A DNA stretch of 64,000 bases from Pseudanabaena cinerea FACHB-1277 (GTDB lineage Bacteria; Cyanobacteriota; Cyanobacteriia; Pseudanabaenales; Pseudanabaenaceae), in NCBI RefSeq assembly GCF_014696345.1, contig NZ_JACJPY010000014.1, positions 1 through 64,000 of the forward strand, written 5' to 3'. The translations under genes and the position numbers were made by a program. Of this stretch, positions 53,160 to 59,041 are shown piece by piece; within the stretch, counting starts at the first letter, position 1, and each line of letters starts with the position of its first letter. Under the pieces are notes generated by a model. The model was given only the letters and a program-made list of their open reading frames with translations, did no database searches and was not told the DNA's origin.

Positions 53160-53215
53160 TGAGCAACGCAGTAACCGATACCCATGCCTTAATCTGATAT
53201 TTAGAAGACAACTAA
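53159..53215 (+). pseudogene. VapC (PIN-domain toxin) remnant
   Basis: The frame reads MSNAVTDTHALI, a stop (TGA, 53195-53197), then YLEDN and another stop (TAA, 53213-53215). PIN toxins of this group start VTDTHALIWYL, so the TGA is where TGG (Trp) is expected. The first catalytic Asp is present; everything after the first strand and helix is missing. The remnant runs into the end of the opposing mntA gene. Confidence 0.7.
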
Positions 53216-53544
53216 ATTTTTTCATAAAAAACAACGCCAACTCGATTAATATGATCGACTAAATCAGGATTGTCAATATCCTTGAAAATCGATATATCAA
53301 AAGAATAAGGCAACAACAAATCATCAATATCTAACTCAATACTACCTAAATGTGAATAACTAAGTTGATCACCAATTAAAGTCAAATCAATATCCGAGCC
53401 ATTACGATAATTACCCTTAGCTCGTGAGCCATATAATAATGCTTTTTCGATTTTAGGATGCTTTGTAAACACAGAAATAATTTTATGAATCGTTGATTCC
53501 TTTAGACCAAATCGTTTTATAGTTTCATCAGTTTGCATCATCAC
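53212..53544 (-). CDS. mntA: MNT-type nucleotidyltransferase (MntA antitoxin)
   Basis: A minimal nucleotidyltransferase of 110 residues. The catalytic motif GSRAKGNYRNGSDIDL (39-54) gives GSx10DxD, and a third acid is probably Asp83 in YSFDIS. In characterised pairs MntA adds AMP groups to a tyrosine of HepT and thus neutralises it. The gene overlaps the end of hepT by 17 bp in the usual toxin-antitoxin arrangement. Confidence 0.85.
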   Translation of the reverse strand: MMMQTDETIKRFGLKESTIHKIISVFTKHPKIEKALLYGSRAKGNYRNGSDIDLTLIGDQLSYSHLGSIELDIDDLLLPYSFDISIFKDIDNPDLVDHINRVGVVFYEKI

Positions 53545-53938
53545 TTAACTCCTGCATCTTTTTCCCTAACGCCACAAACAAAGCAAAAAATCTTGTCTCA
53601 ATATTCGTAATAATTGCCTCAGCCGTAGCTTCATTATAAGTATGCACCGTCTGATTGCGATCCTTAATCATATCCATCCAACTTTCTCCATCCTCAATCA
53701 ACCCCACCTTAAAAGCAGCCCTCACCGAATCCTTAGAACCAGTTATATTTTGGATTCCTTGATCCTGTAAATAATCTTTTAATAAATTCCATGCTAACTC
53801 ATGAGTATATTCAAAAGCTTGAATTAAACCCTGCTTTTCCAGTTCATTCAAATCGCCTTTGTTAATAAACTTAGTTAACTGTAAGAGCGCTTTTTTATAA
53901 TTAGAAAATCTTTGCTTCCAGCGAATATCTTCATTCAT
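53528..53938 (-). CDS. hepT: HEPN-domain RNase toxin (HepT, HI0074 type)
   Basis: The 136-residue all-helical protein belongs to the HI0074/nucleotidyltransferase substrate-binding family. The HEPN active site RNQTVH (Arg94 to His99) is followed by TY, giving the Rx4HxY motif; Tyr101 is the expected AMPylation target. HepT cleaves RNA or trims tRNA ends in studied systems. Together with the overlapping mntA gene it forms a complete toxin-antitoxin pair located between mcrC and mcrB. Confidence 0.85.
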   Translation of the reverse strand: MNEDIRWKQRFSNYKKALLQLTKFINKGDLNELEKQGLIQAFEYTHELAWNLLKDYLQDQGIQNITGSKDSVRAAFKVGLIEDGESWMDMIKDRNQTVHTYNEATAEAIITNIETRFFALFVALGKKMQELSDDAN

Positions 53939-55408: not shown

Positions 55409-56404
55409 TCAAATAATCAAACCTGCTATTTGTAGTAGAGTGACTTCCCATACTAACCTTGGCTGCACATATCGAGAAATTAGTTCTCTAGCCTTATCGA
55501 GATGTTGCAAATGTTGAAGAACCTTAGGGAGATGGTGGGATGCGTTTGGGGCAATGGTGGTTAGATTCCAAAAGTAGTTTTGTAAATAATCGATTAGCCA
55601 TAATTGCCGATCCACTTCTAATTCCTTCGTGATTTGCTTGGCGATCGCCATAGCAGTTCTGGCATCTTGCGGAATCTTCCGCACCGCAATCATTAACTCG
55701 GCGGGAATACTTTGGAAACGCTCAAAGGACTCGATCGCCTGACCTGCGGAGCCTTGGGCGAGGGCAATCACCTCTGGGGGAATATCCGTATGTCCTTCCC
55801 GCGCTAGGACTAACTGCATTTGCTCTTGGTTGAGCCTTGTAAAGGGAATGCGTTGACAGCGCGAAACTAGGGTGGAGAGAATTGTGCCAGCATCGGGAAC
55901 GATCAAAATAATGGTGGCATAGAGGGGTTCTTCTAGGGTTTTGAGAAGACTATTAGCGGCTGACTCTGCCATAGACTGCGCCTCTTCAATGATCACGACC
56001 GATCTCTGACATTCTAGGGGCGCACGGCTGACAAATTCACGAATTTCCCGCACCTGTTCAATTCTAATTTGCGGTAAAGCCTTACGTTTGAGTCCTGCGG
56101 CTTCGGCTTCCTTGGCGGTGAGCATTTTGCCTTTGTCTAGGTAGGTTGGCTCTACCCACAGCAAATCTGGATGATTGCGATCGCTGATACGGTTGATAGA
56201 TTTGCGATCATCTAAGAGGAGTGTAGCAAAAGCAAGGGCAGTTTTGCTGCGCCCGATGCCACTGGTTCCTGCAAATAGGTAGGCAGGGGCTATCCGATCG
56301 CGTTTGATGGCAGATTTGAGTAAGGCGATCGCCTGTTGCTGTCCCACCACCATCGCAAAAGGATCATAATCTATGTCCACACTATGATTGACTTTAGCAA
56401 TCAT
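55409..56404 (-). CDS. holB: DNA polymerase III delta-prime subunit
   Basis: HolB is a clamp-loader subunit. The 331 residues have the AAA fold: VVGQQQAIALLKSAIKRDR, a degenerate P-loop GTSGIGRSKTA in place of the GxxGxGKT of active subunits, ANSLLKTLEEP, and the sensor block LSTLVSRCQRIPF with the trans-acting SRC motif. The altered P-loop is normal for delta-prime. It lies immediately after the two small paralogous genes (1-bp junction), so it is probably in an operon with them. Confidence 0.9.
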   Translation of the reverse strand: MIAKVNHSVDIDYDPFAMVVGQQQAIALLKSAIKRDRIAPAYLFAGTSGIGRSKTALAFATLLLDDRKSINRISDRNHPDLLWVEPTYLDKGKMLTAKEAEAAGLKRKALPQIRIEQVREIREFVSRAPLECQRSVVIIEEAQSMAESAANSLLKTLEEPLYATIILIVPDAGTILSTLVSRCQRIPFTRLNQEQMQLVLAREGHTDIPPEVIALAQGSAGQAIESFERFQSIPAELMIAVRKIPQDARTAMAIAKQITKELEVDRQLWLIDYLQNYFWNLTTIAPNASHHLPKVLQHLQHLDKARELISRYVQPRLVWEVTLLQIAGLII

Positions 56405-56994
56405 TAATCATTCCAAGATTCTTCTAAGGATTTCCATGAACGATGGGAACGTAGCCCTAAGCGATCGCGGCGATCGTTAACAGAGTTTATGGTATCTAGA
56501 GTACGACGGCGCAACCACCAGCGAATTGCTTCATCGACTGTTGCCGCAGGATTATTAGAAATTTCTAACAGTTCCTTAAACAACTCAGGGGAAATCTCGA
56601 CACTATAGGATGTATCCGCCTCTGATAATGGTTTTGATAATGGGTTGGTTGATAAGTCTACATTTAGCGAAGGGGATTCACTTGCAGCAGTAGCGATTTT
56701 GCCATCGGCGATCGCCATTGGATCGTTATTTGTTTCGCCATTTGCATCACCATTTGCATCACTATCATTTGCGCTCATGGGTTGCGGCAATTGTTTAGCA
56801 ATTAAATGGGAACTTTGCTCAGACATGGCATTAGATTTATCTTGGGTGATGGGTTTCATGATGGATTGATCGGAAACCTTGGGTTGATTACGATTGAAGA
56901 TAAAGGACATAAGTAAGATGATTCCAAACTGGAATAGTCCAATCACCAGTATGAGTTTATCCTGTTGCCACAATTCATCCATAAAATTTTTCAA
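56404..56994 (-). CDS. Membrane-anchored protein with a short conserved C-terminal domain
   Basis: The 196-residue protein has one transmembrane helix near the N-terminus (about 14-34), a long low-complexity linker (Asn/Asp/Ala/Ser-rich, about 40-125) and a C-terminal domain at about 130-196: ISPELFKELLEISNNPAATV, EAIRWWLRRRTLD and SWND at the very end. The same domain makes up the neighbouring protein at 56991. I do not know a characterised homologue. The helix-rich pattern could be a small DNA- or protein-binding domain. Confidence 0.75.
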   Translation of the reverse strand: MKNFMDELWQQDKLILVIGLFQFGIILLMSFIFNRNQPKVSDQSIMKPITQDKSNAMSEQSSHLIAKQLPQPMSANDSDANGDANGETNNDPMAIADGKIATAASESPSLNVDLSTNPLSKPLSEADTSYSVEISPELFKELLEISNNPAATVDEAIRWWLRRRTLDTINSVNDRRDRLGLRSHRSWKSLEESWND

Positions 56995-57239
56995 TCATTC
57001 CATTCGCCACGGGGCGGCACAACGGGATTCATCGTGAGGGGACGTGAGCGATCGGCTTCTTTGATTGCCCGTCTCTGTAGCCATTGGCGAATGGCAGTGT
57101 CGATCGCCTGACTAGGATCATTGGTGACTTCACCAAGTTCGGCTAATAAAGCAGGATCGATCTCGACACTTTTAAGTATTTCATTAAATCTTGCTTCATC
57201 TATGGATTGGGCTTGGGGCAATGCGTTGTCTTCAGGCAT
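56991..57239 (-). CDS. Small soluble protein related to the neighbouring C-terminal domain
   Basis: This 82-residue protein has VEIDPALLAELGEVTNDPSQ, then AIDTAIRQWLQRRAIKEAD and ends in GEWND. The order and spacing match the C-terminal domain of the next gene (ISPELFKELLEI, AIRWWLRRRTLD, SWND), so the two are paralogues. The two genes overlap by 4 bp and are followed by holB. Unknown function. Confidence 0.75.
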   Translation of the reverse strand: MPEDNALPQAQSIDEARFNEILKSVEIDPALLAELGEVTNDPSQAIDTAIRQWLQRRAIKEADRSRPLTMNPVVPPRGEWND

Positions 57240-57432
57240 ATTGACTATTTAAGTTACTTAAGTTGTTGCAAATTTATCGAAAATTGACTGACTCTATGTA
57301 GATCTTACCCAGATTTGTGCCTTTCTGAATGTGCATTGCGATCGCAATCTTGTAGGACTTACGCCTTAGCCTTGTAATAAACTAGGAGCTGAAAGCTTAA
57401 ATCCGTGATAAAATAGAACCAAGCGGAGTTGA

Positions 57433-57757
57433 AAAGAGTAGCCGTGGTGGGCGAACTTTCCGTTGTATAAAGGCTAGACATCACCTATTAGTTATGCACT
57501 AATAGCCCCAATATCCCACTAAGCCGTAAAAGAGCTTATGGATGGGTGAAAAATAAAAAACAATATTCACTCCTTGGGACACAGGGAGTCTGCCTCGAAG
57601 ATAGGAAACTATCTTGCCAGTTAGTACTCAGTGAGTAAAACCTGCGGATGCTGAGTAAGACCAAAACTGAGTTTGCTTAGTTTTGGCTTTAGCAAATGAA
57701 AGAGGAAGCCCGTACTCTATTTTTTGTTTACAGAAAAAATGAATGTCGGGTATGTCA
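57433..57757 (+). ncRNA. Structured RNA upstream of hisS, HEARO/omega-RNA-like, without an IscB gene
   Basis: About 320 nt carry at least six stems: GTGGG/CCCAC (57447-57451/57515-57519), CTATTAGT/ACTAATAG (57485-57505), GTGAA/TTCAC (57546-57570), AAGATAG-GAAA-CTATCTT (57598-57615, a GNRA loop), TACTCAG/CTGAGTA (57625-57657) and CCAAAACTGAG/CTTAGTTTTGG (57661-57686). It ends GAGGAAGCCCGTAC, then a TTTTTT/AAAAAA hairpin flanked by CCCG and CGGG and ATGTCAC, as at IS200/IS605-type right ends. The beginning GTGGTGGGC and GGCTAGACAT recall IscB omega-RNA scaffolds. No protein gene is between it and hisS. A -10-like TAAAAT is at 57409-57414. It is not RNase P RNA, tmRNA or 6S RNA by their conserved motifs. 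Confidence 0.5.
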
Positions 57758-57787
57758 CCTAAGCTCACAATAGGCTCACAAAGATCA

Positions 57788-59041
57788 ATGTCTTCACTTC
57801 AGGTTACACGCGGGACTCGCGACATCACTGCCCCCGAAATTTATTATTGGCAGCAGTTAGAAACAACTGCAAGGCAAATTTTGCAGCAGGCTGCCTATAC
57901 CGAAATTCGCACACCTATTTTTGAGGCGACCGAGCTATTTTCGCGGGGCATCGGCGAAGCGACGGATATCGTTGGTAAGGAAATGTATACCTTTAATGAT
58001 CGCGGCGATCGCTCTTTGACATTACGCCCAGAGGGGACAGCAGGGGTGGCGCGTTCCTATATTGAGAATGGACTATTTGCCCAAGGGGGCGTGCAGCGTC
58101 TTTGGTATATGGGAGCAATGTTTCGTTATGAGCGTCCACAGGCGGGGCGACAGCGCCAGTTTCATCAGTTGGGGGTGGAGGTGTTAGGTAGTGCCGATGC
58201 CCGTGCTGATGCCGAAGCGATCGCGATCGCCAGTGACTTTTTGCAAGCTTTGGGGCTGACGGATTTGGTGGTAGACCTGAATTCGGTGGGCAGTGCCGAG
58301 GATCGTGTTAACTATCGTCAGGCATTGGTGGATTATTTCACGCCCTTTATTGATGATCTGGATGCTGATTCTCGCGATCGCCTCACCCGTAACCCTTTGC
58401 GAATTCTCGACAGCAAAGACAAGCGCACCCAAGAGATCTGCCAAGATGCCCCCAGTATTTTGGATTATCTCAGTACCGACTCCCAAGAACATTTTGCCAA
58501 GGTGCAATTATTACTTAGCGATCTCCAAATTAGTTATCGTCTGAATCCGCGCCTAGTCAGAGGCTTAGACTATTACACCCGCACCGCCTTTGAAATTCAA
58601 TCCACCGCTTTGGGCGCACAGTCCGCAGTTTGTGGTGGTGGACGTTACGATCGCCTGATTGCCGAGCTTGGTGGCGCTGATGTACCTGCGGTGGGCTGGG
58701 CGATCGGCTTAGAGCGGTTGGTAATCCTGTTACAACAGATCGCCACTGCGCCTAAAGCCAATGTTGATTTTTATATCGTGTCACGGGGTGAGGCGGCGGA
58801 GATCAAGTCCTTGGCGATCGCCCAGATCCTCCGCAAGGCAGGTTTTGTTACAGAGCTAGATATCACAGGTTCTAAGTTTGACAAGCAACTCAAACGAGCA
58901 AGTAATGCTGAAGCAAAAGCTGCGATCATTATCGGTGATGCGGAAATTGCCGCCGCACAGGTACAGATTAAATGGCTTGCCACTGGCGATCAAGAGGCGA
59001 TCGCGATCGCTGACCTAGTGACCCACTTGCAATCAAACTAA
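57788..59041 (+). CDS. hisS: Histidyl-tRNA synthetase
   Basis: This class II synthetase charges tRNA-His. I take ATG 57788 (MSSLQVTRGTRDI) as start, since relatives begin here and the longer frame to 57743 runs into the RNA element. Motif 1 lies around IRTPIFEATELFSRG, motif 2 is YMGAMFRYERPQAGRQRQF, the histidine-specific blocks are LVRGLDYYTRTAFEI and CGGGRYD, and motif 3 is GWAIGLERL. The C-terminal anticodon-binding domain starts about residue 330. The roughly 417 residues are normal. The next gene follows after 5 bp. Confidence 0.96.
   Translation: MSSLQVTRGTRDITAPEIYYWQQLETTARQILQQAAYTEIRTPIFEATELFSRGIGEATDIVGKEMYTFNDRGDRSLTLRPEGTAGVARSYIENGLFAQGGVQRLWYMGAMFRYERPQAGRQRQFHQLGVEVLGSADARADAEAIAIASDFLQALGLTDLVVDLNSVGSAEDRVNYRQALVDYFTPFIDDLDADSRDRLTRNPLRILDSKDKRTQEICQDAPSILDYLSTDSQEHFAKVQLLLSDLQISYRLNPRLVRGLDYYTRTAFEIQSTALGAQSAVCGGGRYDRLIAELGGADVPAVGWAIGLERLVILLQQIATAPKANVDFYIVSRGEAAEIKSLAIAQILRKAGFVTELDITGSKFDKQLKRASNAEAKAAIIIGDAEIAAAQVQIKWLATGDQEAIAIADLVTHLQSN

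Follow-up and report, generated by a model that had tools for sequence, protein, structure and literature searches.

The question raised by this locus is what a large structured RNA is doing directly ahead of hisS, with no nuclease gene at its side. The window, meaning the whole 64,000-nucleotide stretch of DNA analysed here, had been given a sequence-only reading in which the RNA was of the kind used by RNA-guided nucleases, possibly an orphan IscB/HEARO omega RNA, and either worked with a distant nuclease or had been recruited as the hisS leader. The evidence points to a different identity, in which positions 57400–57758 are probably a stranded copy of an IS200/IS605-type element that encodes no protein, carries a TnpB-type omega RNA and belongs to a family borrowing both TnpB and TnpA in trans.

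The hisS locus

The features that place the element are listed here.

57281–57352, plus strand: native intergenic flank upstream of hisS, about 80–90% identical to 17 relatives without the element
57400–57758, plus strand: left-truncated protein-less IS200/IS605-type element, RNA body and right end, delimited by homology among copies
57788–59041, plus strand: hisS, histidyl-tRNA synthetase (Pfam tRNA-synt_His), with a start conserved in 23 relatives

The element lies in the sense orientation of hisS, 29 bp ahead of it. No nuclease gene stands in cis and hisS comes next, about 30 bp on, as had been read from the sequence. An element directly before hisS is absent in 23 of 23 relatives, and the native DNA just before the gene is not recognisable in the window. 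The conserved hisS start and native flank, together with the absence of the element from the 23 relatives, indicate a lineage-specific insertion.

This arrangement could also mean that the element forms the 5' end of the hisS mRNA and may regulate hisS. Its orientation, its short distance from the gene and the disappearance of recognisable native DNA favour such a leader, and a parallel exists in three genomes, where a related RNA precedes a phosphoribulokinase-like gene. Against this stand the relatives, all 23 of which lack the element at hisS, and the other copies, which sit beside unrelated genes. In addition, neither a T-box nor any other regulatory Rfam family is found at the gathering threshold, and no riboswitch matches, making a recruited hisS leader distinctly improbable.

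The RNA beside the phosphoribulokinase-like gene is a longer relative (about 600 nt, ending ...GGGAGTACGTCAC) that lies about 30 bp upstream of the gene at three loci (L148, L208 and L143, from genomes G120, G056 and G256). The three genomes belong to one genus, and the RNA is about as conserved among them as the gene (90–96%). This copy has possibly been recruited.

Two other regions of the window, both on the minus strand, contain small genes. Those adjacent to each other at 53212–53938 resemble, by eye, a nucleotidyltransferase (GSRAKGNYRNGSDIDL) and HEPN-type pair. At 56404–57239, an 82-aa and a 196-aa gene share a similar segment, which suggests duplicated small proteins; the 82-aa product has no Pfam match.

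Copies, borders and ends of the element

Copies of the window element occur in its own genome, where four further partial copies were found, and in other genomes of the genus, so that the proposed search for further copies succeeded; six of the 58 searched genomes have matches, all six from the same genus. Alignment with copies in G003, G006, G012 and the window genome shows homology from 57400 to 57758 between unrelated flanks. The structure placed earlier at 57433–57757 is indeed there, with borders that shift slightly outwards. The right border is sharp at ...CGGGTATGTCAC (57758); other copies share this terminus, and the DNA beyond differs between sites.

57704–57758, plus strand: right end, consisting of GGAAGCC, an imperfect hairpin at 57709–57751 and the terminus GTATGTCAC, which is common to other copies

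The GAGGAAGCCC...GGGTATGTCAC end that had been likened to IS200/IS605 right ends is present, and its layout recurs at the right ends of tnpB ISs from the genus (...CTGGTAGTTCAC). Longer copies carry about 95 bp more on the left, beginning TTTAAC TAATGTGAGTGAGAAGTCCCGCACTCTATCCGTTTACAGGGATGAGTGGCGGGATG... and containing a hairpin end that resembles the right-end hairpin. TTTAAC directly precedes the left end of intact copies, which thus combine subterminal imperfect hairpins with a fixed left target motif. The window copy has no left end, and for the DNA 5' of 57400 alignment to the left end is no better than for shuffles. Such a copy should no longer move, and the hisS copy is probably immobile.

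No copy of the window-type element contains a reading frame of note. The window copy and the own-genome copies inspected are intergenic, and the neighbours of other copies are unrelated genes. Some copies carry internal deletions (L007, L008, L009 and L016). In G012 (contig C226, L023 1487–1549), an element of about 60 bp is a single hairpin in which left and right ends are fused, as in palindrome-deleted PATEs from Haloquadratum. A pattern scan of genome contigs returned same-genus or close copies only, and viral contigs, plasmids and phages gave zero exact-pattern matches. An autonomous partner sharing the right end GTATGTCAC was not found in the genus, where only left-end-sharing tnpB ISs occur. 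A same-genus genome holds a CRISPR array (L014, about 1498–1532; G022:C2:51993-52024; repeat GTTTCAATCCCTAAAAGGGTTTCAGAGGCTTTGAATC) in which a 35-nt spacer is identical to the element right end together with 3 flanking nt.

Structure of the RNA

The RNA that the element would encode is predicted to comprise two domains, and the features within and around them are the following.

57409–57414, plus strand: TAAAAT, a possible -10 of an internal promoter, noted on sequence inspection only
57421–57565, plus strand: 5' structured domain with GTGGTGGGC and GTATAAAGGCTAGACATCACC (model R3, 177.8 bits)
57566–57712, plus strand: 3' domain, homologue of TnpB omega RNA by model match, core CTGCGGATGCTGAGTAAGACC-hairpin-GGCTTTAGCAAATGAAAGAGGAAGCC (R1/R2, 161.6 and 88.2 bits)
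57600–57613, plus strand: GATAG-GAAA-CTATC stem-loop, with the stem kept among copies
57759–57778, plus strand: predicted guide CTAAGCTCACAATAGGCTCA, the host DNA that directly follows the right end, placed from TnpB biology

The structured strand at 57421–57758 folds into a series of stems at -103.5 kcal/mol, compared with -87.5 for dinucleotide shuffles (z -2.96), and the predicted fold beats 99 of 100 such shuffles. A large structured RNA of the RNA-guided-nuclease type therefore stands up, with its stems present, its folding above that of shuffles and its pairs covarying, and the GTGGTGGGC and GGCTAGACAT blocks singled out at its start are both there. The helix described as GNRA-capped has a GAAA cap at 57600–57613 in the window; G012:C39 has TTTC as the loop and G000:C136 has GCAA, which means that the cap is not strictly GNRA. 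Consensus scans gave no sigma-70 promoter in the region of 57409–57414, no clear promoter for the element and no site supporting a terminator.

The 5' domain, about 145 nt long, is missing from the tnpB ISs tested and is found in copies of family f29 and in family f27, where it matches L194 (E 1e-9) with TGTATAAAGRCTAGACAYCNCC nearly unchanged. This block, which surrounds GGCTAGACAT, is thus conserved into another cyanobacterial family. In alignment A10 of the domain, 11 of 32 pairs show changes on both sides, a result reached by 0 of 500 shuffles; most of these changes come from the one distant sequence, L194, and covariation without it gives modest support. Other protein-less types have different 5' parts. 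TATAAAG was considered as a general 5'-half motif of all types and rejected, as it is present in some types only.

A 5' RNA domain before an IS right end recalls IStrons, in which an IS is paired with a ribozyme (PMC4227781), and on that model the domain could be a group I intron able to remove the element from RNA by splicing. Rfam searches for group I and group II introns gave no match at relaxed thresholds, and the own-genome copies inspected are intergenic. An IStron-like element is hardly credible here.

Homology to TnpB omega RNAs

The 3' domain resembles the sequence found at tnpB 3' ends within the genus. These read CTGTGGA(G)...GTAAGNC...hairpin...GGC...GAA(Y)CAGGAAGCC, after which come a right-end hairpin and TCA(C). 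The order is repeated in the element, CTGCGGA-TGCTGAGTAAGACC-hairpin-GGCTTTAGCA-AATGAAAGAGGAAGCC-hairpin-GTATGTCAC, and the best pairs in the alignment of element to tnpB 3' ends reach z 3–6 over dinucleotide shuffles. The hairpin before the core, ACTCCTTGGGACACAGGGAGTCTGCC, has a counterpart within tnpB, ATCTCGTTAGGAACTAGCGAGTCTGCC.

Covariation extends the likeness to structure. The helix TGCT/AGCA (57649–57652 with 57691–57694) covaries with GGGA/TCCC and GCGAC/GTGC types. In helix 1, compared across elements and tnpB ISs, all three of three pairs show both-side changes, with U-A, G-C and C-G combinations by family, and the covariation score is reached by 0 of 500 shuffles; paired cells make up 97%, and sliding the partner makes the pairing collapse. 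Across families (alignment A8, 25 sequences), both-side changes occur in 30 of 36 pairs and 94.7% of cells pair, versus about 40% when slid, although these pairing and covariation figures are inflated by an alignment fitted to the structure. Covariance model R1, built from protein-less copies only as an unbiased test, matches tnpB 3' ends with roughly calibrated E-values of 7.9e-6 (L058), 1.1e-5 (L055), 1.5e-5 (L060) and 7.3e-5 (L063 and L104). The stems thus covary, as the proposed conservation check had sought, and the models built here match other loci, while no Rfam family covers the RNA in scans run on the window, on the locus and on related loci.

Judged on sequence and predicted structure, 57566–57712 is homologous to TnpB omega RNAs. 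It has their conserved core and helices at an IS right end, and no tnpB adjoins or overlaps it in the window copy. The cargo of the element appears to be a structured RNA of about 300 nt, whose 5' half would stand where tnpB stands in related ISs.

These results leave little room for the IscB/HEARO identity, under which the RNA would be an orphan omega RNA with a 5' guide. A large, structured RNA associated with an element of IS200/IS605 type is what such an identity predicts. However, the proposed search with Rfam HEARO (RF02033) gave no match at E<=10, either here or in related loci; the RRXRR domain of IscB was not found in the genome, with a profile that was silent in control genomes too; and the homology is of TnpB type. 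The bases put forward as a 5' guide, 57428–57443, hardly vary between copies inserted at different sites and cannot be a site-derived guide. An IscB/HEARO RNA is accordingly very improbable.

In TnpB reRNA, the last 16 nt correspond to the DNA that flanks the right end; a target-adjacent motif is also required (PMC8612924). The segment 3' of GTCAC differs between copies of the element at different sites, and by analogy the guide, if any, would be the 16–20 nt after 57758.

Distribution across cyanobacteria

Among 292 cyanobacterial genomes, 23 contain a match to model R1; for R2, built from 25 sequences, the figure is 71 of 386. Of 76 matched loci examined with a TnpB profile, 17 had a tnpB frame lying over the RNA (22 when five at contig ends are added), and the other 59 had no tnpB in the flanks examined; these proportions are skewed to the protein-less form by a model built mostly from it, by the choice of the best-scoring loci and by a few contexts that end at contig ends. 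Protein-less copies occur in several cyanobacterial families. In G144, a protein-less element of about 400 bp is 100% identical at two sites, with TTTAAC before each, and further sets in G144 and G400 have the same kind of ends. Identical copies at different sites indicate that protein-less elements are mobile.

Could these elements be ordinary deletion derivatives of tnpB ISs, PATE- or MITE-like, in which the omega-RNA part is functionless and carried along as right-end overlap? The shorter deletion copies and the single-hairpin copy (L007, L008, L009 and L023) would fit, as would the hisS copy without its left end, and PATEs of such origin are known in Haloquadratum (PMC3119063). On the other side, several cyanobacterial families retain the protein-less form, with dense compensatory change, and its 5' domain is not in tnpB ISs yet is conserved in another family. 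Neutral deletion products are not expected to keep both stems and a 5' domain, which counts against this origin and makes it unlikely, if the most serious of the alternatives.

A candidate TnpB partner and a proposed mechanism

A protein-less element that moves would depend on proteins made elsewhere. Three full-length TnpB genes are present in the window genome, together with fragments, so a likely candidate exists for the partner nuclease that had been supposed to lie elsewhere in the genome; the element RNA would use it in trans. The IS at G000:C90 encodes a 397-aa TnpB (PF01385 and PF07282), and its left end is 80% identical to that of the element (L010) over 93 bp. Close TnpBs of this type (>85% identity) occur in 9 of 26 same-genus genomes, where the element-like left end is mostly shared and TTTAAC precedes nearly all copies. 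All four genomes with the extended element (G000, G003, G006 and G012) hold a left-end-sharing TnpB, for which a hand-computed hypergeometric gives a chance of about 0.008. At the right end, the hairpin sequence of the element is not the one found in the left-end-sharing tnpB IS, which leaves this pairing a guess. More broadly, tnpB genes are present in 12 of 12 tested RNA-bearing genomes, which is weak evidence because tnpB is so common in cyanobacteria. Y1 transposase has six matches in the window genome, none linked to element ends.

Five contig ends of the window genome (G000:C31, C36, C61, C151 and C129; L210–L214) break off within the 3' end of a repeated tnpB gene that has an omega RNA of its own, and it seems that this multi-copy IS interrupted the assembly there.

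In the proposed cycle, TnpA acting in trans would peel the element out as a single strand at its hairpins. The element RNA would be transcribed, reading 16–20 nt into the 3' flank, and loaded into the TnpB of another IS, here perhaps that of G000:C90, which shares the left end. TnpB with this RNA would then cut the emptied donor site at TTTAAC plus guide, and repair from a sister copy still holding the element would restore it. A role of TnpB in transposon retention has been published (PMC11870625); we infer that TnpB is used in the same way with the RNA of the protein-less element.

Taking cyanobacteria as a whole, we lean somewhat towards a widespread and old class of omega-RNA-only transposons that have their own multi-domain guide-RNA gene and hijack TnpB and TnpA. 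Each insertion would add a trans-acting guide, and some copies would have settled upstream of housekeeping genes (hisS and the phosphoribulokinase-like gene). Such a class would account for a set of dispersed, unannotated intergenic repeats in cyanobacteria. An element keeping the guide-RNA gene only would be a parasite, gaining TnpB-driven retention without the cost of a nuclease. Should the RNAs act in trans, many guides would be served by one TnpB. In that case the system would form a natural intermediate between cis omega RNAs and CRISPR-like guide libraries, and the elements could supply guide scaffolds that carry an extra domain.

Comparison with known systems

Transposase-free relatives of IS605 are already known in the form of PATEs (PMC3119063). 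No report of TnpB-type omega-RNA-only elements was found in the literature searched, with most subscription papers outside its reach. TnpB omega RNAs, or reRNAs (Karvelis et al. 2021, PMC8612924), share with the element the core CTGYGGA...GTAAGNC...GGC...GAA..AGGAAGCC, the stems, the position at the right end and flanking DNA as the would-be guide. The element differs from them in having no cis tnpB, an added 5' structured domain of about 145 nt and, as a type, a further stem-loop inserted after the first hairpin and ahead of the core.

Stand-alone IscB omega RNAs with no adjacent nuclease gene, thought to act in trans, were reportedly described by Altae-Tran and colleagues in 2021. They are alike in being guide RNA copies that lack a neighbouring nuclease gene; those are of IscB type with a 5' guide, whereas the RNA here is of TnpB type and a 3' guide is expected. 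IStrons (PMC4227781) likewise combine, within a transposon, a 5' RNA domain with an IS right end, but no group I intron is detected in the element, and its 3' part is an omega RNA.

A further parallel in form is with the Haloquadratum PATEs, which are transposase-free, carry near-terminal palindromes related to IS605-type ends and likewise include core-deleted and fused-palindrome derivatives. PATEs were described from their ends, some of them as degenerate, core-deleted IS605-type elements (PMC3119063). The elements described here differ from them in keeping, across families, a covarying gene of omega-RNA type.
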